Source: Rubrivirga marina | GTDB taxonomy: Bacteria; Bacteroidota; Rhodothermia; Rhodothermales; Rubricoccaceae | Assembly: GCF_002283365.1 (NCBI RefSeq) | Contig: NZ_MQWD01000001.1 | Coordinates: 621,694-685,693 of the forward strand | DNA length: 64,000 nucleotides | Reading direction: 5' to 3' | Part shown: positions 2,977 through 64,000 of the stretch, piece after piece | Position numbering within the stretch: position 1 is the first letter of the stretch | Layout: every line of letters starts with the position of its first letter | Translations under genes and position numbers: made by a program | The notes under the pieces: model-generated | What the model saw: only the letters and a program-made list of their open reading frames with translations | What the model was told of the DNA's origin: nothing | Databases searched by the model: none

Positions 2977-2994
2977 TCCTTTTTGTGCCCGAAC

Positions 2995-3006
2995 GGAAGG
3001 GCTTCC
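2995..3006. promoter_or_regulatory. GGAAGGGCTTCC near-palindrome before kdgA
   Basis: This element ends 2 bases before the ATG of kdgA. It differs from a perfect GGAAGCGCTTCC palindrome only in the central pair, and resembles start-proximal sites at 11598, 11689, 37053, 41584, 50728 and 52719. It could be an operator of a second LacI/CcpA-like regulator, or simply the translation start region of kdgA (GGAAGG also resembles a Shine-Dalgarno sequence). Confidence 0.3.
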
Positions 3007-3008
3007 GC

Positions 3009-3674
3009 ATGACCCGTTCTGAGATCCTCGACTCCGTCCTCGCCAGCGGCGCCGTCGCCGTCGTCCGCATGGCCGACTCGGGCCGCCTCGTGCGGCTCGC
3101 CGAGGCCATCGCCGAGGGCGGCGTGACCGCCATCGAGATCACGATGACGACGCCGAACGCGCTCGACGTCATCGAGGCGACCGGCCGCGAGCTCGGCGAC
3201 GCCGTGACCGTCGGCGTGGGGTCGGTGCTCGACGCCGAGACCGCCCGCCGCGCCGTCGACGCCGGCGCCCGCTACGTCGTCAGCCCCGTGTTCAAGCCCG
3301 AGATCGTCGCCGAGGCCCACCGCCTCGACGTGCCTGTGATGCCGGGGTGCTTCACGCCGACCGAGATCCTCACGGCGACGGAGGCCGGCGCTGACGTCGT
3401 CAAGGTGTTCCCGGCCGACGTGTTCGGGCCGACGTTCTTCAAGGCCGTCCTCGCGCCCATGCCGCACCTCCGGATGATGCCGACCGGCGGGGTCTCGCTC
3501 ACGAACGCGGGCGACTGGATCCGGGCCGGCGCCGTGGCCGTCGGCGTGGGGAGCGCGCTCCTCGACAAGCAGGCCATCGCCGACGGCGACTGGGCCACGC
3601 TCACCCAGAAGGCCCGGACCCTCCGCCAGTCGGTCGAGGCGGGCCGGGCCTCCATCTCCACCGCCTCGCGCTAA
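3009..3674 (+). CDS. kdgA: Bifunctional KDPG / 4-hydroxy-2-oxoglutarate aldolase
   Basis: A 221-residue class I aldolase of the KDPG/KHG family with a single TIM barrel. The family's catalytic residues are visible: R20 in VVR, E43 in AIEIT, and the Schiff-base lysine K132 in VVKVFPAD. It cleaves 2-keto-3-deoxy-6-phosphogluconate to pyruvate and glyceraldehyde-3-phosphate, the last step of galacturonate catabolism. I chose the ATG at 3009; an in-frame GTG at 2985 would add eight residues but lies very close to the uxaB stop. It stands between uxaB and kdgK (3-base gap to the latter), so kinase and aldolase are co-expressed. Confidence 0.9.
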   Translation: MTRSEILDSVLASGAVAVVRMADSGRLVRLAEAIAEGGVTAIEITMTTPNALDVIEATGRELGDAVTVGVGSVLDAETARRAVDAGARYVVSPVFKPEIVAEAHRLDVPVMPGCFTPTEILTATEAGADVVKVFPADVFGPTFFKAVLAPMPHLRMMPTGGVSLTNAGDWIRAGAVAVGVGSALLDKQAIADGDWATLTQKARTLRQSVEAGRASISTASR

Positions 3675-3677
3675 CTC

Positions 3678-4706
3678 ATGAAAGTCGTCACGCTCGGCGA
3701 GATCATGCTCCGGCTCTCGACGCCGGGCTTCACCCGGTTCGTCCAGGCCCAGTCGTTCGACGCCACCTACGGCGGCGGCGAGGCCAACGTGGCCGTGGCC
3801 CTCGCGAACTACGGATTCGAGAGTTACTTCGTCTCCAAGCTGCCGGCCCACGAGATCGGGCAGGCCGCCGTCAACCACCTCCGGCGGTTCGGGGTCTCGG
3901 ACCGGTTCATCGTGCGCGGCGGCGACCGCGTGGGGATCTACTTCCTCGAGACCGGCGCGAGCCAGCGGCCGAGCAAAGTCATCTACGACCGCACCGACGC
4001 GGCCGTGACGACCCTGACCCCCGACGAGCTCGACCTCGGCGCCGTGTTCGAGGGGGCCCGGTGGTTCCACTTTACGGGCATCACGCCCGCCCTCGGCGAG
4101 ACGGCCCGGAAGACCGTCGTCGCGGCGGCGAAGGCGGCCAAGGGCGCCGGCGCGACCGTCTCGTGCGACCTCAACTTCCGCAAGAAGCTGTGGACGACTG
4201 AGGAGGCCCAGGCCACGATGCGCCCTCTCATGGAGCACGTCGACGTCTGCATCGCGAATGAGGAGGACGCCGACAAATGCCTCGGGCTGACAGCTGGCGA
4301 GACGGACGTCCACGGCGCGGAGCTCGACGAGGCGGGGTACGTCGACTTGGCGAAGCGGCTCAAGCGAGAATTCGACTTCGAGGCCGTCGCCATCACGCTC
4401 CGCGAGTCGTTCTCGGCCAGCCACAACGGCTGGAGCGCGATCCTCCACGACGACAAGGACTGCGCCGAGCCCGTCCGCTCGACGCGGTACGACATCCAGA
4501 TCGTCGACCGGGTCGGCGGGGGGGACTCGTTCGCGTCGGGCCTCATCGCGGGGCTCTTGCAAAAGGGCGACACGCGCGAGGCGCTCGAGTTCGCCGTCGC
4601 CGCGTCGTGCCTCAAGCAGACGATCCCGGGCGACTTCAACCTCGTCAGCCGCGCCGAGGTGGACGCCCTCGTGGCCGGCGACGGCTCCGGGCGCGTTCAG
4701 CGCTAG
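3678..4706 (+). CDS. kdgK: 2-keto-3-deoxygluconate kinase, PfkB family
   Basis: A 342-residue PfkB-type sugar kinase. The N-terminal glycine pair region GGGEANVAVAL and the C-terminal anion-hole/catalytic motif DRVGGGDSFASG (catalytic Asp about residue 283) define the family. The motif has GGGD instead of the usual GAGD, which is common among KDG kinases. It phosphorylates KDG to KDPG, the substrate of the aldolase encoded just upstream. A different PfkB specificity is possible in principle, but the operon with uxaB and kdgA makes KDG kinase much the best assignment. Start ATG at 3678, 3 bases after the aldolase stop. Confidence 0.9.
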   Translation: MKVVTLGEIMLRLSTPGFTRFVQAQSFDATYGGGEANVAVALANYGFESYFVSKLPAHEIGQAAVNHLRRFGVSDRFIVRGGDRVGIYFLETGASQRPSKVIYDRTDAAVTTLTPDELDLGAVFEGARWFHFTGITPALGETARKTVVAAAKAAKGAGATVSCDLNFRKKLWTTEEAQATMRPLMEHVDVCIANEEDADKCLGLTAGETDVHGAELDEAGYVDLAKRLKREFDFEAVAITLRESFSASHNGWSAILHDDKDCAEPVRSTRYDIQIVDRVGGGDSFASGLIAGLLQKGDTREALEFAVAASCLKQTIPGDFNLVSRAEVDALVAGDGSGRVQR

Positions 4707-22508: not shown

Positions 22509-24296
22509 ATGACTGCCCGTCCGCCATTCCAGCTTCTCGGCCTCGCGCTGCTGGCCGCCCTCGCCGGCTTCGCGTTCGCCCCGCGGCCCGTCCACGTGTT
22601 CGTCGCGGGCGACTCGACGGCGGCCGACAAACGCGCCGAGCGACGGCCCGAGACGGGGTGGGCCGAGCGGCTCCAGAGCTACTTCGACACGGACGACGTC
22701 CGCGTGGTCAACCTCGCGCGGAACGGGCGGAGCACGCGGACCTTCCTCGAGGAGGGCCGCTGGGCGTCGCTGCTGGAGGAGGTCCGGCCGGGCGACGTCG
22801 TCCTCATCCAGTTCGGCCACAACGACCAGTCGGAGAGCAAGCCCGACCGCTACACGCCGCCGGATGCGTTCCAGGCCAACCTCCGCCGGTTCGTCGCCGA
22901 CGTCCGCGCGAAGGAGGCGACGCCCGTGCTCATGACGCCGGTCGTCCGCCGCCGCTTCGACGACGCGGGCCGGTTCCACGACGTCCACGGCGAGTACCCG
23001 GACCTCACGCGGGCCATCGCGGAGGAGACCGGTGCGCCGCTCGTCGACCTCCACCGGTCGAGCGAGGCGGCGCTGCGCGCGTGGGGCGCCGAGGGCTCGA
23101 AGGACCTGTTCCTCGTCTTCGGCCCCGGCGAGCACGCGAACTACCCCGACGGGCTCGACGACAACACGCACTTCTCCCCGCTCGGCGCGTCGGTGATGGC
23201 CCGGCTCGCGGCCGAGGGGATCCGCGACGCCGGGCTCGGGCTGGCCGACCACCTGCTCCTCGACGCGCCGCCCGCCTGGGACGCCGTCGTCGGCGACCCA
23301 GCCGGCCTCGGGCCCGAGGCGGAGGGAGCCAGGCGGTTCGAGACGATCGGCGCGGCGCTCGACGCGATCCCCCCCGAGCGCGACGGGCCGTACCGCGTGC
23401 TCGTCGGCGACGGGCGGTACCGCGAGAAGCTGACCGTCACCGACCCCGAGGTCCACCTCGTGGGAGAGAGCCGCGACGGAGCGGTCCTGACCTACGACGC
23501 CCACGGCGACACGCCGGGGCCCGACGGCGAGCGCCTCGGGACGTGGGGGAGCGCGACGCTCACCGTCCGGGCGCCCGGCTTCCGTGCCGAGACGCTGACC
23601 ATCGAGAACGCCTTCGACTACCCGGCCAACGCCGCCCTCTCGGACGACGACCCGGCCAAGGTGGCGAACCCGCAGGCCGTCGCCCTCATGCTGGACGAGG
23701 GGAGCGACCGGGCCGTCCTCTCCGAGGCCACGGTCACCGGCTACCAGGACACGTTCTTCGCCGAGTCCGGCCGCGCCTACGTCTGGCGCTCGCTCGTCTC
23801 CGGCCACGTCGACTTCCTCTTCGGCGGCGGGCAGGTCGTCTTCGACGAGTCCGTGATCGTCTCGCGCGACCGGGCCGACAAGAACCCGACGGGCTACGTG
23901 ACCGCCCCGAGCACGCGCGTCGGGTACCCGTTCGGGTTCCTGTTCGTCGACAGCCGGCTCGAGAAGGAGCCCGGCGTCGAGGCCGGGTCCGTCCGCCTCG
24001 GGCGGCCGTGGCACCCGGGCAACGACTCGACGGCCAACGGGAGCGCCGTGTTCGTCCGGACGTGGATGGACGACCACGTCGGCGCGGACGGCTACGCGCC
24101 GATCTCCGGCCGCGGCCCCGACGGCGAGCGGATCTGGTACGACCTCGAGCCGACCTCCCGCTTCTTCGAGTGGGGGACGACCGGCCCCGGCGCCCACGTC
24201 GGCCCGCGGCGTCCGCAGCTGACGGGCGCGCAGGCCGCGGGGTACACGCCCGGGCACGTCCTCGACGGCTGGCGACCGGCCCGGTCGCTCTACTAA
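22509..24296 (+). CDS. Fused rhamnogalacturonan acetylesterase (CE12) and pectin methylesterase (CE8)
   Basis: A 595-residue two-enzyme protein. Residues 1-25 are a signal anchor or peptide. Residues 27-245 form an SGNH esterase with GDST (Ser36), GHND (Asn105) and DNTHFSPLG (Asp218, His221), as in CE12 acetylesterases. Residues 275-595 form a CE8 beta-helix with Q389, GYQDTFF (Q413, D414), GHVDFLFG (D435) and RLGRPW (R499, W501), i.e. all pectin methylesterase catalytic positions. One polypeptide would therefore strip both acetyl and methyl esters from pectin, opening it to GH28, PL1 and PL9. It is the last gene of the uxaC operon. No T9SS tail or lipobox is visible. Confidence 0.88.
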   Translation: MTARPPFQLLGLALLAALAGFAFAPRPVHVFVAGDSTAADKRAERRPETGWAERLQSYFDTDDVRVVNLARNGRSTRTFLEEGRWASLLEEVRPGDVVLIQFGHNDQSESKPDRYTPPDAFQANLRRFVADVRAKEATPVLMTPVVRRRFDDAGRFHDVHGEYPDLTRAIAEETGAPLVDLHRSSEAALRAWGAEGSKDLFLVFGPGEHANYPDGLDDNTHFSPLGASVMARLAAEGIRDAGLGLADHLLLDAPPAWDAVVGDPAGLGPEAEGARRFETIGAALDAIPPERDGPYRVLVGDGRYREKLTVTDPEVHLVGESRDGAVLTYDAHGDTPGPDGERLGTWGSATLTVRAPGFRAETLTIENAFDYPANAALSDDDPAKVANPQAVALMLDEGSDRAVLSEATVTGYQDTFFAESGRAYVWRSLVSGHVDFLFGGGQVVFDESVIVSRDRADKNPTGYVTAPSTRVGYPFGFLFVDSRLEKEPGVEAGSVRLGRPWHPGNDSTANGSAVFVRTWMDDHVGADGYAPISGRGPDGERIWYDLEPTSRFFEWGTTGPGAHVGPRRPQLTGAQAAGYTPGHVLDGWRPARSLY

Positions 24297-31496: not shown

Positions 31497-33617
31497 CTAC
31501 GCCGCCCCGAGCACGGCGGCAGCGTCCACCGCGTCCGGCAGCGGGCCGACGTGGGTGAGCTTCCGCGCGGCCATCCGCGCGCCGGCTCGAGCACAGTCCG
31601 ACGGGTCCTGCCCCGCGAGCCACGCGGCCAGGAAGCCGGCCCAGAAGGCATCGCCCGCGCCCGTCACGTCGGCCGCCTCGACGGGCTCGGCGGGGACCTC
31701 GACGAGGTCGTCGTCCCACGCCACGAGCGCGCCGTCGGCGCCCCGCGTGAGACAGACGAGCGAGGCGCCGAGGCCGAGGAGGTGGCCGACGGCCGCGTCG
31801 TCGCTGGCGGCGTCGCGGCCCCAAAGCCGCGTGAGGTCGTCGCGGCTGCACTTCACGAGCGGGCTGAGCGCGAGAACCCGGCGCGCGGCGTCCTGCTGGT
31901 GGGCTCGTCGCACGTCCGTGTCGGGCGCGAAGTTGACGTCGATCGAAACCGCCAGCCCGAGCGCGCGGGTGCGCGCGGCGGCGTCGAGCAGCGTCGCGCG
32001 GGCGGGCTCGCGGCTGAGGGCAAAGCCGGACGTGTGGAACAGCCGGGCCCGCCGGAGGAGCGCGTCCGGGAGCTGGCTCGGCCAGAGGAGCCGGTCGGCC
32101 GTGCGGTAGGCCACGAAGTCGGGCGTCCCGGCCGAGCGGGCGACGGCCACGAGGCTCGTCGGCTCGTCGCGGACCGCGAACCGGGCGTCGACGCCCACGC
32201 GTTCGGCGGCGGCCGTCAGAAACTGCCCGAGCCCATCGTCGCCGACGGACGCCACGAGCGCGACGGGCACGCCCAAGCGAGCGAGGTTGCTCGCGAGGTT
32301 CGCCGGGCTCCCGCCGGCGTGGCGCTCGAACACGGCGGCCCCCCCGAGGTCGTCTGTGGGCTCGCTCGTGATCAGGTCGGCCAGCACCTCGCCGGCGACG
32401 ACGACGAGCGGCGCCGCGGCCTCGGGCGTTGATTCGAGCATGAGGGCGGGCGTCCAATCCCCGAGGCCACCCTCGAGGGCGGCGCCGCCGAGGACCGCAC
32501 CGGCGGCGCTCCAGGCGAGCGGCGTCGTGCCGAGACGCTCGCCACGCTCGGCGTCGAGGTATTCGGGGAAGGCCTCGCCGTTGGCGGCCGCGACACGGTC
32601 GAGGAGGGCACGAGCGTCGTCGGCCCGCCCCGCCTCGGCGAGCGCGGCCACCCACCAGCCGTTGACCATTGGCCAGCACCCGCCGTTGTGGTAGTGCCCG
32701 GGCCGGTTTGAGAACCGGTCTCGGACGGTCCCGCGCAACGTCGCCCATCCGTCGTCGCCCTCGCGGATCTGAGGGGCGAAGGCGGGCACGAGCCGGGGCG
32801 CGGCCTCCTCGGCGAGCGCCAGCCCGTGATCGAGGAGCGCGTCCCGGCGATCGGGCCAAAGGTCCGCGAGGACGGCCAGCGCTGAGCCGAGCGCGTCGAA
32901 CCGCCGGACGTAGCCGCCGGGCGTGAGTGCGGCGAGCGGGTGCGACCTCTCGCCGTCCGAAAGCGAGGAGCGGTAGGCCGCCGGGTGGTAGGCCGCCTCA
33001 GCGTCGCCCGCCGCGTGCGGCCAGAACGTCGCCTCGATGAGGGCGTGGAGTCGGTCGGCCCGCGTGGCGACCGAGGCCGGCGACGGCGCCCAGGGCGCCC
33101 ACGCGCGGAGCGCCAGCAGACGGAGCACCTGGTCGTAGAGGAGGTACCCGTGGAGGTCGTACTCGTCGGCCCAGTCGCCGGACTGCGGGACGTAGACGAG
33201 CCCGCGCGCGTTGACCTCCCAGGCGTCGAGGAGGTTGAGCACGCCGCCGATCGCGGGCGCCCACCGCGCGGCCCACGCCGCGTCGCCCGAATGCTGGGCC
33301 CAGCGCGCCGCGCCGAGCACGGCCCACGGTCCCGCATCGACGCGCCCCGCCAGCCCACCGTAGCTCACCGCTTCCGTCGCGCCGTCTACCACCGACACGT
33401 TCGACGGGACCTGCCCCTGCGGCCCGACGTGTGCGAGGAGCGTCTCGACCGTCTGGCGGAGGCCGTCGGCGAGCGCGTCGTCGCCCGAGACGAGGCCGGC
33501 GAGGCCGCAGATCACGCCGTCGCGCGCCCACACGCGGCGGTAGTTGGTCCGGTCCGTCGGCGAGGCGAGATAGCCCGCCTCGGTGAGCGACTGGCGCAGA
33601 AGGTCGAGCGCGGTCAT
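31497..33617 (-). CDS. Fusion of a GH100-like (neutral invertase-type) hydrolase and a PfkB sugar kinase
   Basis: A 706-residue chimaeric protein. Residues 1-395 form an (alpha/alpha)6-type hydrolase with YRRVWARDG (27-34), GRVDAGPW and YHNGGCWPMVNGWW (309-322); the last strongly resembles the YHNGGSWP signature of neutral/alkaline invertases, with amylo-1,6-glucosidase relatives as alternative. Residues 403-706 are a complete PfkB kinase ending with the DVTGAGDAFWAGF catalytic motif, fructokinase-like. A natural reading is hydrolysis of a disaccharide and immediate phosphorylation of one product. I chose ATG 33617, whose ATGA overlaps the blh stop; ATG 33629 is also possible. It is the last gene of the cyclase-blh trio. 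Confidence 0.8.
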   Translation of the reverse strand: MTALDLLRQSLTEAGYLASPTDRTNYRRVWARDGVICGLAGLVSGDDALADGLRQTVETLLAHVGPQGQVPSNVSVVDGATEAVSYGGLAGRVDAGPWAVLGAARWAQHSGDAAWAARWAPAIGGVLNLLDAWEVNARGLVYVPQSGDWADEYDLHGYLLYDQVLRLLALRAWAPWAPSPASVATRADRLHALIEATFWPHAAGDAEAAYHPAAYRSSLSDGERSHPLAALTPGGYVRRFDALGSALAVLADLWPDRRDALLDHGLALAEEAAPRLVPAFAPQIREGDDGWATLRGTVRDRFSNRPGHYHNGGCWPMVNGWWVAALAEAGRADDARALLDRVAAANGEAFPEYLDAERGERLGTTPLAWSAAGAVLGGAALEGGLGDWTPALMLESTPEAAAPLVVVAGEVLADLITSEPTDDLGGAAVFERHAGGSPANLASNLARLGVPVALVASVGDDGLGQFLTAAAERVGVDARFAVRDEPTSLVAVARSAGTPDFVAYRTADRLLWPSQLPDALLRRARLFHTSGFALSREPARATLLDAAARTRALGLAVSIDVNFAPDTDVRRAHQQDAARRVLALSPLVKCSRDDLTRLWGRDAASDDAAVGHLLGLGASLVCLTRGADGALVAWDDDLVEVPAEPVEAADVTGAGDAFWAGFLAAWLAGQDPSDCARAGARMAARKLTHVGPLPDAVDAAAVLGAA

Positions 33618-34597
33618 CGGCCGGTCCATACGTGCTGTCGGAGGTCCATCCACGCGACCACGACCACGTGGGGGACGGTCAGAGCCGCGATCCCGACGAG
33701 GTAGGCGCCGACACTCGCGACCCGCCCGCGGAGCGCGTCCGCGAACACGAGGCCGATGAGGGCGAGCGCGCCGAGCGTCGCGGGCGCGGCGTACAGCGAG
33801 AGCCGCCGTGCCGATCCGTCGGCCACGAGCGGCCCGAGCCGGGCGAGGTGCCGGACCGCGTGCCACAGGCAGAAGTACACGCCGACGCTCCACAGCGGCG
33901 GGAGCACGGCGAAGAACACGGCGAGGCCGGCGACCTCCGCCAGATCCAGCCCGAGCGACCGCCACGCGCGGCGTCGGCGGCCCACGACCGCGCCCCACAT
34001 GGCATAGACGCCGATCAGCACACCGAGGCCGACCCACACGACCGCAGACGGAATGCCGAGCACGAGCCGGCGCGCGGCCTCGGCGCCGTCGGGCTGGAGC
34101 GCCGCCGCCATCGCCCCGACCACCTCGGCGTAGACCTCGGGGTGGGCCGCCAGCGGGACGGCCATCGGCAGCGCCCCGCGGACGGCGCCGGCCAGCACGC
34201 GCTGCGCCGGGCCCGCGAGGTGCGCGTCCCACCCGAGCGCCCGGAGCGCGTAGACGTCACCCTGTCCCCAGTGCGCCCACGTCAGCAAGACGAAGCCGAC
34301 GGCGGCCGCCGTCGGCGCCGCCCACCACGCCGCGAGAACGAGCGCGCCGAGCGCGAGGTACGCCACGCAGAGGCGCGCGAGCGGACCGAGGCGGAGGGGC
34401 TCACCCCGCATCGCGAACGGAACGAGCGGGTCGACGGCGCCGTGCGGCAGCCCCAGGACGACGGCGCTCGACACCCACGGGAGGGCGAGCACGGCGGCCG
34501 GGGCATCGGCGAGAGCCGGTGTCAATGCCAGGGAGCCTAGCACGCCCCCCCAGGCCAGCGCGAGGCCGCCCCACCGCCACGCGAACGGGAACGTCAC
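33614..34597 (-). CDS. blh: Brp/Blh family beta-carotene 15,15'-dioxygenase
   Basis: A 327-residue multi-spanning membrane protein. GLPHGAVDPLV, LTWAHWGQGD and FCLWHAVRHLARL carry the conserved histidines that coordinate iron in the bacteriorhodopsin-related Brp/Blh oxygenases, and a further His lies in TVPHVVVVAW. It splits beta-carotene into two retinals, the chromophore of microbial rhodopsins. The start is a GTG at 34597 that overlaps the stop of the lycopene cyclase gene (GTGA); its own stop overlaps the next start (ATGA). The frame extends further upstream, but only within the cyclase gene. A rhodopsin gene is therefore expected elsewhere in the genome. Confidence 0.88.
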   Translation of the reverse strand: MTFPFAWRWGGLALAWGGVLGSLALTPALADAPAAVLALPWVSSAVVLGLPHGAVDPLVPFAMRGEPLRLGPLARLCVAYLALGALVLAAWWAAPTAAAVGFVLLTWAHWGQGDVYALRALGWDAHLAGPAQRVLAGAVRGALPMAVPLAAHPEVYAEVVGAMAAALQPDGAEAARRLVLGIPSAVVWVGLGVLIGVYAMWGAVVGRRRRAWRSLGLDLAEVAGLAVFFAVLPPLWSVGVYFCLWHAVRHLARLGPLVADGSARRLSLYAAPATLGALALIGLVFADALRGRVASVGAYLVGIAALTVPHVVVVAWMDLRQHVWTGR

Positions 34598-35331
34598 GCC
34601 GGTACCGGCCGCGCGCGCCGCAGCCTGCCCACCGTCTCGGGAAGGGCGTCGCGCTCCAGCATCACGAGCCCCTGCGCCACGAGTTGGGCGGTCACGAAAA
34701 AGAACAGGCCCTCCTCGAACGGGAGCCCGGCCACCTCCCACCCCGTCCGCGTCGCGTCGGTGATGTCCCAGATCCCGAGCCCGATGGCCACCCGGTCGGC
34801 GAGGCAGAAGTAGAACGCCGTCGGGACCACGGCCCACGCCACGAGCCGCCGCCGCGCCCAGATGAGGTGCCCGCCCAGTCCCCACATCAGCGCGAGGATC
34901 GGGAAGGCCCAGGCCAGGATCAGCCCGAGGTAGAGCCAGCGGCCGCCGGCCACCACGCAGGCCACCCCCACCACCGACAGCACCGCGAACACGGCCGTCC
35001 CCACGACGCGCGCCGTCACGTTCGGGGCCGCCGGCTCGGCCGGCCAGCGCGCCTGGAGGAGCCGCACGACCAGCCCCACGATCACGGACTCGATCACGAA
35101 GAAGGCGTACTCCTCGACCGGCACGTAGCCGATCGTCGCCCAGACACGGTCCGGAGGGTACGTCCACACCTCGTTGGCCACGAGGAAGTTGTCCCAGGGC
35201 GTCGTGTAGACGAACGCGATGCCCGTGATGAGCGCGAGCGGCCACCACGGCTCGCGCGTCCGCCCCTGCAGGAGCGCGAGCGCCGCGAGGACCGGGAGCG
35301 TAAAGACGAAGTGGAACTGGAGGTACGTCAC
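34594..35331 (-). CDS. Lycopene cyclase, CrtYcd-type fused heterodimeric form
   Basis: A 245-residue membrane protein made of two similar three-helix halves. The first starts TYLQFHFVFTLPVL and contains FVYTTPWDNFLV and VPVEEYAFF; the second contains DRVAIGLGIWDI and LPFEEGLFFFVT. PWDN and the two (P)xEE(Y/G)xFF motifs are the signature of the CrtYc/CrtYd-type lycopene cyclase. It makes the beta-carotene that Blh then cleaves. The start is taken as GTG 35331, directly before TYLQF; no ATG is available at the right place. The gap to the sodium symporter end is 92 bases. Confidence 0.87.
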   Translation of the reverse strand: MTYLQFHFVFTLPVLAALALLQGRTREPWWPLALITGIAFVYTTPWDNFLVANEVWTYPPDRVWATIGYVPVEEYAFFVIESVIVGLVVRLLQARWPAEPAAPNVTARVVGTAVFAVLSVVGVACVVAGGRWLYLGLILAWAFPILALMWGLGGHLIWARRRLVAWAVVPTAFYFCLADRVAIGLGIWDITDATRTGWEVAGLPFEEGLFFFVTAQLVAQGLVMLERDALPETVGRLRRARPVPA

Positions 35332-35423: not shown

Positions 35424-37013
35424 CTACCAGAACAGCCCGACCACGACCGCCGTGAGCCCGACGAGCACGGCCGACTGAACGCGGTAGTTCTTCCACGCCG
35501 GGACGCCCTTGAGCTCCTCCGTCTCGGCACGGAAGAAGGCGGGCGTCCACATGAGCCCCTCCGTCTTCTCGGCCGGCGGCGGCGCCGTCCGGAGGCTCAC
35601 GATCACCATGGCGGCCATCGAGATCAGGAGCAGGATGGGCGCGAGGTAGAGGAAGTTGAACCGGAGGACGTCCGTGATGCTCAGCACCAAGAAGATCACC
35701 GAGGCGGTGTGGCCCGCCACCAGCCCCGCGAGCGCGCCGTGGCCGTTGGCCCGCTTCCAGAACACCCCGAGCACGAAGAGGGCGATCGCCGGCGGCGCCA
35801 CGTAGGCCAGCGTCGACTGGAGGTAGTCCCACAGCGTGTCGGCCCGCGTGATGATGGGGCTCCAGACAATCGCGACCACCATGCAGATGGCCGTCACGAT
35901 CCGCCCGATCCGGGCCAGGGCCTGGGGCGACGTGCTCGGCCGGTACTTCTTGACAAAGTCCATCGTGACCAGCGTCGAGGCCGCGTTGAGCGTCGAGTCG
36001 ACGCTCGACATGATGGCGGCGACCATGGCCGTGAGCACGAGCGCCCGGAACCCGGCGGGCAGGAGGTCGAAGAGGAGCGTCGGGAAGATCTGGTCCGGGT
36101 TGGCGACCATCCCCTCGGGGTAGAGCACGCGCCCGAACGTGCCCGGCATCACCATGAGGAACAGGATGGGCAGCTTGAGGAGCCCGCCGAAGAGCGCGCC
36201 CCAGCGGCCGTGGTCGAGGTTCTTGGCGCCGAGCACGCGCTGGACCATGAACTGGTTGGTCGTCCAGAAATAGAACCCGAGGAGGAAGACGCCCGTGATC
36301 AGCCCGAGCCACGGCATGTCGGGGCTCGAGAGGGGCTGGATGAGCGAGAGCTTCTCCTCCGGCGTCACGGCCACGACGGCGTCCCAGCCGCCGGAGCGCT
36401 GCCACGCCATGAACGAGACGGCCGCGGCGCCGACCAGCAGGAGCGTCCCCTGGATGGCGTCGGTGTAGACGACGGCCTTGAGCCCGCCCGCGATCGTGTA
36501 GGCGCCGGCGACGAGGGCGAGGATCGTCATCGAGCCCCAGAGCGGGAAGTCGGGGTAGAGGAGTTGGACGACGAGGGCCCCCGCGTAGAGCGCCGCGGCC
36601 GTGTCGACGATGACCGACAGGAAGATCGAGATGGCCGAGAAGTAGGTCCGGCTCCGCCCGTCGAACCGCTTCTCGAGGAACTCGGGCATCGTGTAGATCC
36701 CGCTCTTGAGGTAGAACGGGAGGAAGAACAGCACGAACACCACGAGCACCAGGGCCGCCATCCACTCGTAGTTGTAGACGGAGAGCCCGATGCCCCCGTA
36801 CGCCGCGCTCGCCATCCCGATCATCGACGACGACGACAGGTTTGAGGCGACGAGGCTGATCCCGATGAGCCCCCACGTCAGCGAGCGGCCCGCCAGGAAG
36901 TAGTCCTCCCCGTCGTCGGTGTGGCGCGAGAAGTACAGGCCGATGCCGAAGATGACGACACCGTAGGCCAGGACGACCGCGATGTCGAGCGTCGTCAGAG
37001 TGAACTCGGGCAT
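35424..37013 (-). CDS. Sodium:solute symporter (SSS family)
   Basis: A 529-residue transporter with about 13 to 14 hydrophobic helices, including the SSS signature regions EDYFLAGRSLTWGLIG, NLSSSSMIG and VMVAAIMSSVDSTLNAAST-type serine-rich helix (the AIMSSVDSTLNAAS stretch holds the conserved Na2-site serines). It resembles the SGLT-like sugar members of the family, often found with sugar-processing gene sets in this phylum. A monosaccharide or oxidised sugar is a plausible substrate given the isomerase and oxidoreductase genes to its right. The start is the ATG at 37013; a TTG two codons earlier is less likely. The promoter carries a GGAAGCGTTTCC palindrome. Confidence 0.88.
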   Translation of the reverse strand: MPEFTLTTLDIAVVLAYGVVIFGIGLYFSRHTDDGEDYFLAGRSLTWGLIGISLVASNLSSSSMIGMASAAYGGIGLSVYNYEWMAALVLVVFVLFFLPFYLKSGIYTMPEFLEKRFDGRSRTYFSAISIFLSVIVDTAAALYAGALVVQLLYPDFPLWGSMTILALVAGAYTIAGGLKAVVYTDAIQGTLLLVGAAAVSFMAWQRSGGWDAVVAVTPEEKLSLIQPLSSPDMPWLGLITGVFLLGFYFWTTNQFMVQRVLGAKNLDHGRWGALFGGLLKLPILFLMVMPGTFGRVLYPEGMVANPDQIFPTLLFDLLPAGFRALVLTAMVAAIMSSVDSTLNAASTLVTMDFVKKYRPSTSPQALARIGRIVTAICMVVAIVWSPIITRADTLWDYLQSTLAYVAPPAIALFVLGVFWKRANGHGALAGLVAGHTASVIFLVLSITDVLRFNFLYLAPILLLISMAAMVIVSLRTAPPPAEKTEGLMWTPAFFRAETEELKGVPAWKNYRVQSAVLVGLTAVVVGLFW

Positions 37014-37034
37014 GGGCAATCGGTGGAGTGAGCG

Positions 37035-59889: not shown

Positions 59890-61473
59890 TTAGTACCCCG
59901 CGTTCTGCTGGAGAAGGCCGTCCGAGGCGTCGATCTGGATCTGCGGGATCGGGAACAGCACGCGGTACCCCTGGCTGGCGTCCTTGAACGACCAGGCGTC
60001 GGTGAACCGGCCGAACCGGACGAGGTCCTGGCGCCGCCGCGCCTCGTAGGTCAGCTCGAAGAGCCGCTCGGCGAGGAGGCCGTCGAGGTCGATCGAGGTG
60101 AGCGTCGGCGCGCCGACGCGGGCCCGAAGCGCGTTCACGTCGGTGAGCGCGCCGCCGGCGTCGCCGCTCCGGAGCCGGGCCTCGGCCCGGATCAGGTACA
60201 TCTCGCCGAGGCGGAAGTAGGCGTAGTCGTTGCCGTGGTTGCCGTTCGGCCCGCGGTCCGGGTCCACGTTGAACTTGTTGATCCGGACGCCATTCGCCTC
60301 CGTCGCCGCGCCGTTGACGCCGTTCGGGTAGTCAACGGTGAAGATGAGGGGCTGGCCCGCGCGGTTGTTGATGGCGTCCTCGGCCGTGCACTCGCGGTCC
60401 CGGATGCCCGCCGGGTCACACTGGTCCTGGTTGTAGGCCTGGCCCTGGAGGAAGATCACGCGGCGCGGGTCGTCCTCGGAGAACGCGTTGTACGTGTCGG
60501 CGATCGTGGCGAAGCCGTTCCAGCCGCCGCCCGCGAACGAGTTGTAGTGGCCCCAGCGGTGGGCGAAGTTGAGGCCGTAGCCGTCCTGCGGGAGGTGCTG
60601 GACGACGAAGACGGCCTCCGCGTTGTTCTGGTTGTTCGGGCCGAACTGACTGTACCACGCCTCGAGCCCCTGGTTGAGCGCATACGGCCCGTTGATCACG
60701 CGGGTGGCCGCGTCGATGGCGTCCTGGTAGCGAGGCGCGCCGGGCTGGAGCCCGCTGGCCGTGACCGTCCCCGTGAAGACCGGGGCGTTGATGAACAGGT
60801 TGGCCAGGATCGCGTCGGCCGCGCCCTGCGAGAACCGGCCGCCGTTGCCGGCGCCGGCCACAGGCAGCTCCGTCCGGACCGCCTGGAGCTCGCTAACGAC
60901 GAAGTTGAACACGGTCTCGCGCGTCTCCGTCGGCGGGAGGTCGTCCGGGTCGACGGAGTACTCGCCCTCCTCGTCGCCGATGAGCGGGACGTTGCCGAAG
61001 AGGTCGAGGAGCGTGTAGTAGTAGAACGCCCGGAGCCCGCGGACCTCGGCGACGATGCCGGCCTTGTTGGGGACGTCGAGCGGCTCGAGGTCGCGGAGGA
61101 GGCTGTTGGCCCGGGCCACGCCCGCGAAGGACGCCGTCCAGGCGTCGTTGAGGTCGACGAGCGACGGGCTCCAGGTGTGACGGTGCATGTCGAGCCACCG
61201 GCCGCCGTCGCCCCAGTCGCCGCCTCGCGTCGGGACGATGGTCTCGTCGGACGAGACCTGGCTCAGGTTGTGGTAGGCCCAGAGCGTAGCCCGGAGCTGC
61301 GAGTAGACCGGCGAGAGCGCGGCGATGACCTCGGTCTCGGTTTGGTAGAAGTTCTCCGGCGTGACGGCGCTGTACGGGTCGACCGTGAGGTCGGTGCAGC
61401 CCGCCAGCCCGAAGACGGGCGCGAGGAGCGCTCCGAGGAGCGCAGCGCGCGCGCGGGTGGAAAGCGTGTTCAT
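59890..61473 (-). CDS. SusD/RagB family nutrient-binding outer-membrane lipoprotein
   Basis: A 527-residue lipoprotein with leader ALLAPVFGLAGC (lipobox Cys26). The N-terminal TPR-rich SusD region shows DPYSAVTPENFYQTETEVIAA and AEVRGLRAFYYYTLLDLFG, and the C-terminal part shows YAYFRLGEMYLIRAEARLR and ERLFELTYEARRRQDLVRFGRF, both standard. It forms the lid of the SusC barrel and binds the glycan or peptide to be imported. The SusC partner begins 75 bases upstream of it. The ligand is unknown; the VCBS paralogues downstream may be related cargo or accessory proteins. Confidence 0.93.
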   Translation of the reverse strand: MNTLSTRARAALLGALLAPVFGLAGCTDLTVDPYSAVTPENFYQTETEVIAALSPVYSQLRATLWAYHNLSQVSSDETIVPTRGGDWGDGGRWLDMHRHTWSPSLVDLNDAWTASFAGVARANSLLRDLEPLDVPNKAGIVAEVRGLRAFYYYTLLDLFGNVPLIGDEEGEYSVDPDDLPPTETRETVFNFVVSELQAVRTELPVAGAGNGGRFSQGAADAILANLFINAPVFTGTVTASGLQPGAPRYQDAIDAATRVINGPYALNQGLEAWYSQFGPNNQNNAEAVFVVQHLPQDGYGLNFAHRWGHYNSFAGGGWNGFATIADTYNAFSEDDPRRVIFLQGQAYNQDQCDPAGIRDRECTAEDAINNRAGQPLIFTVDYPNGVNGAATEANGVRINKFNVDPDRGPNGNHGNDYAYFRLGEMYLIRAEARLRSGDAGGALTDVNALRARVGAPTLTSIDLDGLLAERLFELTYEARRRQDLVRFGRFTDAWSFKDASQGYRVLFPIPQIQIDASDGLLQQNAGY

Positions 61474-61548
61474 GGGTTCGGAGGGGCGAGGCCGGCGCCC
61501 AGGATGCCGGCCCCACCGATGAGGTAGAGAGTGTCGGAGGCGGTCACG

Positions 61549-64000
61549 CTAGATCCCGAGGTTCACGCCGATCGTGAACGTCCGAGCGCGCGGGCGGTCG
61601 AGGTAGTCGACGCCGACCGACGAGATCCCGTCGGCCGAGGCGCCCGGCGAGTTGACCTCGGGGTCGAGCCCGGTGTAGGGCGTGAGGACGAACAGGTTGT
61701 TCCCCGTCAGGAAGAGCCGCGCGTTGCGGATCTGGGGGAGCACCTGGCCCAGCCGGTACTCGAACGTGAGTTGGTCGAGCCGGAGGAACGACGCGTCCTC
61801 GACGTAGCGCGACGAGTAGGTCGGCGTCTCGACGACGGCCTCGTCGGGGTCGTACTCGAGGTCGAGGAAGTTCCGGTTGCCCGCGATGCTCCGCGTCCCG
61901 TAGACGAGCGACGTGTTGTTGAACAGCTCGCGGCCCTGCTCGCCTCGGAAGAACGCGCGGACCCCGAAGTCGCCGAACGCGGCGTTGAGCCGGACGCCGT
62001 AGGTGAAGTCCGGTCGCGGGCTCCCGAGCTTGACGCGGTCGTCGTCGCCGGGGCTGTCGGTCGTCCCGACGAGCTCACGGTCGAGCGGGCCGGGCGCCGT
62101 GTCCGGGTCCCCATCGACGTCGACGACCTCGTAGTCGTTGAAGATCGGCTTGCCGTCGGCGTTGTACTCACCGGTGAACTCGTAGCCGTAGAAGATCGGG
62201 AACTCCTCGCCCGGCGTGAGCAGGAGCGACTGGCCGCCCGACTGGCCCTCGCCCGAGATGTTGCCCGTGAAGAGCTGCGTCGCGCCGCCGAGGTCGAGGA
62301 CTTCGTTCCGGTTCGTGTTGAACGTGAGGCCGAGCGTGAAGCTCGACGCGTCGTTCTCGAACAGGAGCGCGTCGAGGGCCAGGTCGACGCCCGTGTTCCG
62401 CAGCGAGCCCACGTTCTGGACCTGCGTCGGGACGACGTCGGCCAGGACCGGGACGTTGAGGAGCAGGTCGTTCGTCGTGTTCCGGTAGAACTCGACGGAG
62501 CCGTAGAACCGGTCGCTCAGGAGCCGGTAGTCGAGGCCGACCGTGACCTCCTCCTTCTGCTCCCACTGGAGGTCCGGGTTGGCCAGCTGGCTCGGCGCGT
62601 AACCCGGGACGATGATCCCGTCGATGACGGCCGAGTTGGCCGGGTTCGCCGCCAGCAGGGGGAGGAACAGGTAGTCGCCGATGGCCTGGTTGCCCACGAC
62701 TCCGTAGCCCGCGCGGAGGCGGAGGTCCGTGACGGCCGTCCCGCCGTCGAAGAACGGCTCGGCCGAGATCCGCCAGGCACCCGAGATGGCCGGGAACAGC
62801 GCGTACCGGTTTTCCTCCGAGAACCGCGACGAGCCGTCGTAGCGGAGCGAGCCCGTGAGGAAGTACCGGTCGCCGTAGTTGACGTTGGCGCGCGTGAAGA
62901 ACGACGCCAGGAGGTTGTCGGCGCGGTACGAGAAGGTGCCCGGGCCGGCGTTGTTGCCGTTGATGGCGACGGTCCCCGACTGGAGGAGGTTGTCCTGGGT
63001 GAAGTCGGTCACGAAGCTCGTCGTCTGGACCGACGTCTCGCTCACGTTGAACTCCTGGTACTCGTAGCCGCCGAGGAGGTCGTAGTTCGTGTTCTCACCG
63101 AGCTGGCTGGCCCAGGTGAGGTAGGTTGAGATCGTCGCCGAGGTCCGCTCGAGCGTCCGGCGGTAGGCCGATCCGCCGTTCGTGGTCGCCGTGGCGAACT
63201 CCTGGCCGACCGGGCTCTGGGCCGGCGTGTAGGCCCGGCGCGTGCCGACCGAGCGGTCGCCACCGACGTTGAGCGAGGCCGTGAGGCCCTCGACGAGGTC
63301 GAGTTCGGCCGTGATGTTGCCGAGCGTCCGGACCGTCCGGGCCGTCTCGTCGATCTGGTTGGCGAGGGCGACCGGGTTGCGGAACGACCGCTGGCCCTCG
63401 ATCTCGTAGTACCCGTCGAGCTGACTGTCGTCGTTGACCGGCGCGATCGGGCGGAACTGGATGGCGTTCTGGAACAGGCCGCCCTCGAACCCACCGACGT
63501 CGTTGGCCGCGACGAAGTCGTCGTCGGTCAGCGCCGACGTGAGGTTCAGGCCGAGGCGGAGCCGGTTGTCGAAGAGCTGGTTGTTCGCGTTGAGCCGGGC
63601 GGTCACGCGCTCCTGGCCCTCCGAGATCACGATCCCCTCGTTGTTGAGGTAGCTCACGCTCGCCCGGTACTGCGTCGTCGGCGTGCCGCCGCCGAACGAG
63701 AGGTTGTGCGACTGGGACACGCCCGTCCGGAAGATCTCGTCGACGAAGTTGGTGTCGAACGCGTTGATGTTGAGGTTGGCGTCGGGGCCACCGAGAATGT
63801 CGTCGCCACTCTGCCCGTCGGCGCCCAGAACGCCCGCGTTGTCGCGGACGAACTGGCGGTACTCCTCGCCCGTGAGGACGTCGTAGGTCGAGGCCGCCGT
63901 CGAGAACGAGGTCGAGCCCTCGTAGTCGACGGTCACGCGGCCCTCGCCGCCGTCCTTCGTCGTGATGAGGATGACGCCGTTCGCGCCGCGCGAGCCGTAG
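61549..64000 (-). CDS. SusC/RagA family TonB-linked outer-membrane protein, partial (N-terminus outside the window)
   Basis: About 817 residues of a SusC-type receptor are visible, starting at the right edge with the conserved YGSRGANGVILITTKDGGEG that ends the plug domain. The rest is the 22-strand barrel, ending ARTFTIGVNLGI with the terminal aromatic-poor strand typical of the family. Signal peptide, carboxypeptidase-like domain and most of the plug lie beyond the window. It is the transport partner of the SusD gene immediately downstream. Conserved motifs such as FFDGGTAVTDLRLRAGYGVVG and the LGNQ-like segment are intact, and no frameshift is seen in the visible part. Confidence 0.93.
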   Translation of the reverse strand, partial: YGSRGANGVILITTKDGGEGRVTVDYEGSTSFSTAASTYDVLTGEEYRQFVRDNAGVLGADGQSGDDILGGPDANLNINAFDTNFVDEIFRTGVSQSHNLSFGGGTPTTQYRASVSYLNNEGIVISEGQERVTARLNANNQLFDNRLRLGLNLTSALTDDDFVAANDVGGFEGGLFQNAIQFRPIAPVNDDSQLDGYYEIEGQRSFRNPVALANQIDETARTVRTLGNITAELDLVEGLTASLNVGGDRSVGTRRAYTPAQSPVGQEFATATTNGGSAYRRTLERTSATISTYLTWASQLGENTNYDLLGGYEYQEFNVSETSVQTTSFVTDFTQDNLLQSGTVAINGNNAGPGTFSYRADNLLASFFTRANVNYGDRYFLTGSLRYDGSSRFSEENRYALFPAISGAWRISAEPFFDGGTAVTDLRLRAGYGVVGNQAIGDYLFLPLLAANPANSAVIDGIIVPGYAPSQLANPDLQWEQKEEVTVGLDYRLLSDRFYGSVEFYRNTTNDLLLNVPVLADVVPTQVQNVGSLRNTGVDLALDALLFENDASSFTLGLTFNTNRNEVLDLGGATQLFTGNISGEGQSGGQSLLLTPGEEFPIFYGYEFTGEYNADGKPIFNDYEVVDVDGDPDTAPGPLDRELVGTTDSPGDDDRVKLGSPRPDFTYGVRLNAAFGDFGVRAFFRGEQGRELFNNTSLVYGTRSIAGNRNFLDLEYDPDEAVVETPTYSSRYVEDASFLRLDQLTFEYRLGQVLPQIRNARLFLTGNNLFVLTPYTGLDPEVNSPGASADGISSVGVDYLDRPRARTFTIGVNLGI

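Follow-up and report, generated by a model that had tools for sequence, protein, structure and literature searches.

A GH100-like hydrolase fused to a PfkB kinase beside retinal-synthesis genes of Rubrivirga marina: a predicted invertase-fructokinase

Described bacterial loci for sucrose utilisation, such as scr of Shewanella (PMC2996990) and sux of Xanthomonas (PMC1790865), combine an importer with a sucrose-cleaving enzyme, joined in scr by a fructokinase. Here we describe a gene that invites comparison with these systems and that lies within 64,000 nucleotides of the Rubrivirga marina genome (contig NZ_MQWD01000001.1, positions 621,694 to 685,693; 'the window'): it encodes a GH100-like hydrolase fused to a PfkB sugar kinase, 706 amino acids when counted from the ATG in CCGATGACCG, and it overlaps blh, a retinal-synthesis gene. 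The locus departs from scr and sux in that a GH100-like hydrolase replaces their phosphorylase or amylosucrase, in that hydrolase and kinase form one chain, and in that this lineage employs an SSS-family symporter. The hydrolase half resembles the GH100 alkaline/neutral invertases (InvA, 5goo-5gor; CINV1, 6ttj) in a near-whole-domain profile match and in the same Asp/Glu catalytic pair; unlike them, it is remote (a very long tree branch leads to InvA), about 385 residues long, kinase-fused, and placed in an apparent import operon of non-photosynthetic bacteria. The kinase half shares with the PfkB fructokinases (Halothermothrix orenii FRK, 3hj6; bacterial ScrK) its best match to a solved structure, the GAGD motif and a sucrose-type neighbourhood; unlike them, it is covalently tied to a hydrolase, and fructose is its predicted substrate. 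Our literature searches, the coverage of which was incomplete, found no invertase/PfkB fusion.

We hypothesize that the fusion is a bifunctional, cytoplasmic enzyme of sucrose catabolism, a reading that sequence and gene order together make probable. The Na+-coupled SSS symporter encoded at 35424-37019 would import sucrose; the GH100-like half would hydrolyse it, with inversion, to glucose and fructose, Asp151 serving as the acid and Glu352 as the base; and the PfkB half would use ATP to turn the released fructose into fructose 6-phosphate. The retinal genes crtYcd and blh, placed inside the presumed transcription unit in this genus only, would be functionally unconnected with the sugar enzyme.

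The initial annotation had described the protein as a neutral-invertase-type hydrolase joined to a fructokinase-like kinase, and this description stands: the profiles agree with it and the catalytic acids are intact. The PfkB profile scores 157 bits (cut-off 25.8) over residues 404-692, and the GH100 profile PF12899 passes weakly (29.6 bits, cut-off 23.6), covering the C-terminal third only. A profile built from 18 relatives of the hydrolase matches Anabaena InvA (5goo; E 5.3e-19) and Arabidopsis CINV1 (6ttj; E 8.8e-17), in each case over nearly the whole domain. Another key observation is that Asp151 and Glu352 are invariant in all 25 aligned bacterial sequences (that of the window included) and in InvA; Asp33 and Asp94 are likewise kept. 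The InvA counterparts of the first two residues stand 226 residues apart; we take the catalytic pair of InvA to be D188/E414, an assignment for which this spacing is the sole backing. A pepper invertase modelled on InvA has its catalytic pair, Asp293/Glu519, at the same distance (PMC5796173). Asp94 (GRVDAGP) was rejected as the general acid, as both the InvA residue count and the 226-residue spacing point to Asp151. Because both catalytic residues are invariant, the enzyme reading withstands the objection that the initial annotation had foreseen, an inactive hydrolase domain lacking its catalytic acidic residues. An AlphaFold model of the fusion, built on six sequences only (mean predicted local distance difference test score, pLDDT, 70), presents the hydrolase half as helical at low confidence (pLDDT 30-50 near the active site); structure searches with this model returned matches to the kinase half only, and thus say nothing on the hydrolase fold.

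Compared with solved structures, the kinase half scores 166.6 bits with the H. orenii fructokinase and 96 bits with the runner-up; the fold of its AlphaFold model compares with PfkB kinases at Z 33-37. From established knowledge of these kinases, we take Asp656 in the GAGD motif to be the catalytic base. Several observations weigh against an invertase-fructokinase. The top NCBIfam model for the kinase is iolC (5-dehydro-2-deoxygluconokinase; 152.8 of 300 bits), ahead of the fructokinase model NF006957 (123 bits, cut-off 450), and the fold comparison ties fructokinase with 2-keto-3-deoxygluconate kinase. Every curated substrate or subfamily model scores under its cut-off, and it is for this reason that a fructokinase-like activity is something that we infer; fructose is suggested by gene context and is not fixed by sequence. 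Furthermore, in several genomes the gene neighbour of the hydrolase is not PfkB but a small PRK/uridine-kinase-like P-loop kinase, which could act on fructose; the hydrolase gene of genome G411 stands ~170 kb from its SSS-kinase pair; and we found no documented case of an SSS symporter that transports sucrose.

Sucrose is nevertheless the likely substrate, because distant hydrolases adjoin sucrose-family transporters, fructokinase-like kinases, and sucrose-phosphate synthase or phosphatase. The hydrolase and PfkB genes of several other families of Bacteroidota are grouped with a LacI regulator, a TonB receptor (both a further likeness to scr and sux) and an MFS transporter, for which the sucrose/proton symporter family gives the highest NCBIfam score (88 bits, under cut-off). 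A distant hydrolase paralogue adjoins sucrose-phosphate-synthase-like and phosphatase genes in G009, the synthase-like gene is only partly present, at a contig end, in G055, and distant paralogues in other Rhodothermales (G014, G028) are fused to a sucrose-6F-phosphate phosphatase (204 and 227 bits). In two other Rhodothermales (L019:1468-3549 and L020:1462-3537, both on the minus strand), this phosphatase is N-terminal to the GH100-like domain; such fusions keep both catalytic residues, so that the last step of sucrose synthesis and a predicted sucrose hydrolase make up an apparent futile pair. No sucrose-phosphate phosphatase was found in the window genome, which favours import and catabolism over synthesis or compatible-solute turnover; a compatible-solute role, entertained in the initial annotation, is also unlikely in that the conserved neighbours are importers.

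A less probable proposition, and one that we regard as unlikely, is that the hydrolase acts on another alpha-glucoside (glucosylglycerate, glucosylglycerol or a turanose-type disaccharide) and that the kinase phosphorylates the matching product. This would be consistent with a weak MGH1-like match (29.4 bits, above the cut-off of 27) and a match to the glucosylglycerate hydrolase (GH63) model NF047898 (24.2 bits, far under the cut-off of 550), with the PRK/uridine-kinase-like protein that takes the place of PfkB in several relatives, and with a sequence that leaves the kinase substrate unfixed. On the other hand, it is the sucrose-cleaving invertases that are matched along the full length of the hydrolase profile (5e-19), whereas mycobacterial glucosylglycerate hydrolases match a short C-terminal stretch only (E about 1e-6); the adjoining transporter and phosphatase families indicate sucrose; and we know of no PfkB kinase that acts on glycerate.

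The SSS symporter, absent from the initial annotation, is the conserved partner of the predicted invertase-fructokinase in this row. Unfused, the order SSS-hydrolase-kinase recurs in metagenome-assembled genomes of Acidobacteriota (L009) and KSB1 (L010) and in three species of the Rhodothermales genus g194 (L121-L123), and the symporter holds the same position in L057 and L058; relatives outside the family that have this row show no carotenoid genes directly alongside. In unfused clusters from three phyla, a second, divergent SSS-type transporter adjoins the kinase; next to the fusion, none was seen. Among the genomes searched, complete fusions are confined to the window's family (G000; G001, 77% identity; G004, 66%), and in G002, where a contig gap breaks the locus, a kinase half stands at a contig end. 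In the tree, the fused sequences fall into a single clade, with support of 100/100. In G520 and G522, the hydrolase and kinase halves share one frame with a lone TAG between them. The simplest history is a single fusion event within the window's family, starting from an older row of symporter, hydrolase and kinase genes, an event in which a stop codon separating two genes of one frame was probably lost.

What, then, of the retinal genes? The initial annotation had proposed translational coupling between the fusion and retinal synthesis, by which the energy gain from rhodopsin would be linked to sugar or compatible-solute metabolism; we consider this very unlikely. The fusion and both four-base overlaps on which the proposal was built (ATGA with blh, GTGA between crtYcd and blh) do exist, the genome encodes three rhodopsins and has its sole blh and sole crtYcd here, and a Na+ symporter could in principle gain from light-driven ion pumping. 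Such overlaps of four bases are common where neighbouring bacterial genes run in one direction, and L009 shows one of the same kind (ATGA) between its unfused hydrolase and kinase genes. The symporter gene is directly upstream of crtYcd, with 92 bases between them. A promoter scan found no sigma-70-like site and is uninformative because Bacteroidota promoters differ from that type; the terminator-like matches in the scan all fall within genes.

The relatives do not keep the trio of crtYcd, blh and fusion, the conservation of which had been suggested as a check. In G004, which belongs to a neighbouring genus, the symporter gene immediately precedes the fusion, no carotenoid gene intervenes, and crtYcd and blh form a pair some 3 Mb distant on that contig. 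The congener G001 carries crtYcd in the interval from symporter to fusion, separated from the fusion start by 67 bases and without overlap, and neither blh nor a rhodopsin was found in its genome. The fusion-blh association is absent from both of these, the sole other complete fusion loci. In a further congener, G003, crtYcd adjoins sdaA without symporter, fusion or blh, and G006 has crtYcd-blh and no fusion. Since the arrangements in G004, G001 and G003 differ, the fusion-blh overlap seems restricted to this species or its closest relatives; and it is the relatives' gene order, together with a congener that keeps the fusion without blh and rhodopsins, that leads us to reject light coupling as the function. 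One arrangement does speak for such coupling: in G016 (L060:7898-18252), ~4.8 kb separates an SSS-hydrolase-kinase row from a cluster of rhodopsin, crtYcd and blh genes that also includes a CarH-like regulator and a photolyase. This proximity, a second case for the two gene sets, is probably due to chance.

The rhodopsins themselves also argue against light coupling. The stretches of their third transmembrane helix (TM3), DWVVTTPLLLAA, TWFLSTPLLLLA and TWFLTTPLLLLD, are the same as the ones that PMC5877348 lists for R28XeR, R28HR1 and R28HR2 of Rubrivirga marina SAORIC-28, and their motifs match the Rubrivirga xenorhodopsin and chloride-pump types given there. The identity accords with an origin of the window in that species, and G001 resembles R. 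profundi SAORIC-476. The energy gain assumed in the initial annotation is doubtful, because anion-pump and xenorhodopsin motifs are not those of an outward proton pump, and proton-motive gain is not expected from rhodopsins of these types. A Na+-pumping rhodopsin as partner of the Na+ symporter was also ruled out, none of the three motifs being that of a Na+ pump. That paper had already concluded that, at a Rubrivirga locus with conserved flanks, blh alone was deleted or acquired between two species; the sugar genes that neighbour the retinal genes are not described in the portion of it dealing with blh and crtYcd of Rubrivirga and Rubricoccus. An elaboration that we find scarcely credible would have the single-chain invertase-fructokinase pass fructose between its active sites, the retinal-gene insertion put carotenoid genes in a Na+-symporter operon, and rhodopsins that pump chloride strengthen the membrane potential on which Na+/sucrose uptake depends. 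Finally, a fused hydrolase that has lost catalysis and regulates or scaffolds the kinase would fit the low similarity to characterised GH100 enzymes and a catalysis that is here predicted only; this reading is most improbable, given that Asp151, Glu352, Asp33 and Asp94 are retained and that the hydrolase half is 81% and 69% identical to the fused relatives.

Table 1. Features of the fusion locus and of related loci (positions are those of the window unless a locus, L, is named)
Feature	Coordinates	Strand	Remarks
Fusion gene	31497..33617	-	706 aa; N-terminal GH100-like invertase domain, C-terminal PfkB sugar kinase
GH100-like hydrolase domain	32463..33617	-	residues 1-385
PfkB sugar-kinase domain	31497..32408	-	residues 404-706; nearest solved relative by sequence is H. 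orenii fructokinase
Asp151, motif DWADEY	33165..33167	-	predicted general acid; aligns with InvA chain position 189
Glu352, motif FPEYLD	32562..32564	-	predicted general base; aligns with InvA chain position 415
Asp656, GAGD motif	31650..31652	-	predicted catalytic base of kinase
ATGA overlap, blh stop (TGA)/fusion start	33614..33617	-	
blh, beta-carotene 15,15'-dioxygenase	33614..34597	-	GTG start; BCD/blh 198 bits; sole copy in genome; guest gene in presumed operon
GTGA overlap, cyclase stop (TGA)/blh start (GTG)	34594..34597	-	
crtYcd (CarR-type) lycopene cyclase	34594..35331	-	GTG start; 127 bits; sole copy in genome; guest gene in presumed operon
SSS-family (SGLT-like) sodium:solute symporter	35424..37019	-	SSF 255 bits; conserved partner of hydrolase and kinase
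Three rhodopsin genes, motifs DTA, TTD, TSA	L102:5777-6454; L103:6060-6797; L104:6473-7360		distant from sole blh
PRK/uridine-kinase-like kinase	L060:10696-11376; L066:8691-9374; L071:8912-9571; L016:793-1461		
Second SSS-type transporter	L009:5947-7860; L010:8821-10206; L121:4543-6474; L123:8086-10017		

Elsewhere in the window, positions 2985-4706, 22509-24296 and 59890-63936 seem, from translations judged by eye, to be rich in pectin/uronate genes, among them KDPG aldolase, ketodeoxygluconate kinase, a pectinesterase with a GDSL domain, and SusC/SusD.

Several phyla thus have in common a sucrose-type cassette of SSS symporter, GH100-like hydrolase and PfkB kinase, the parts of which are named only vaguely by present family models. 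Within it, the gene described here would represent a natural two-step fusion, of which the unfused, in-frame ancestor type survives in relatives. Its overlap with a light-related gene illustrates that such an overlap does not by itself mean a functional link.

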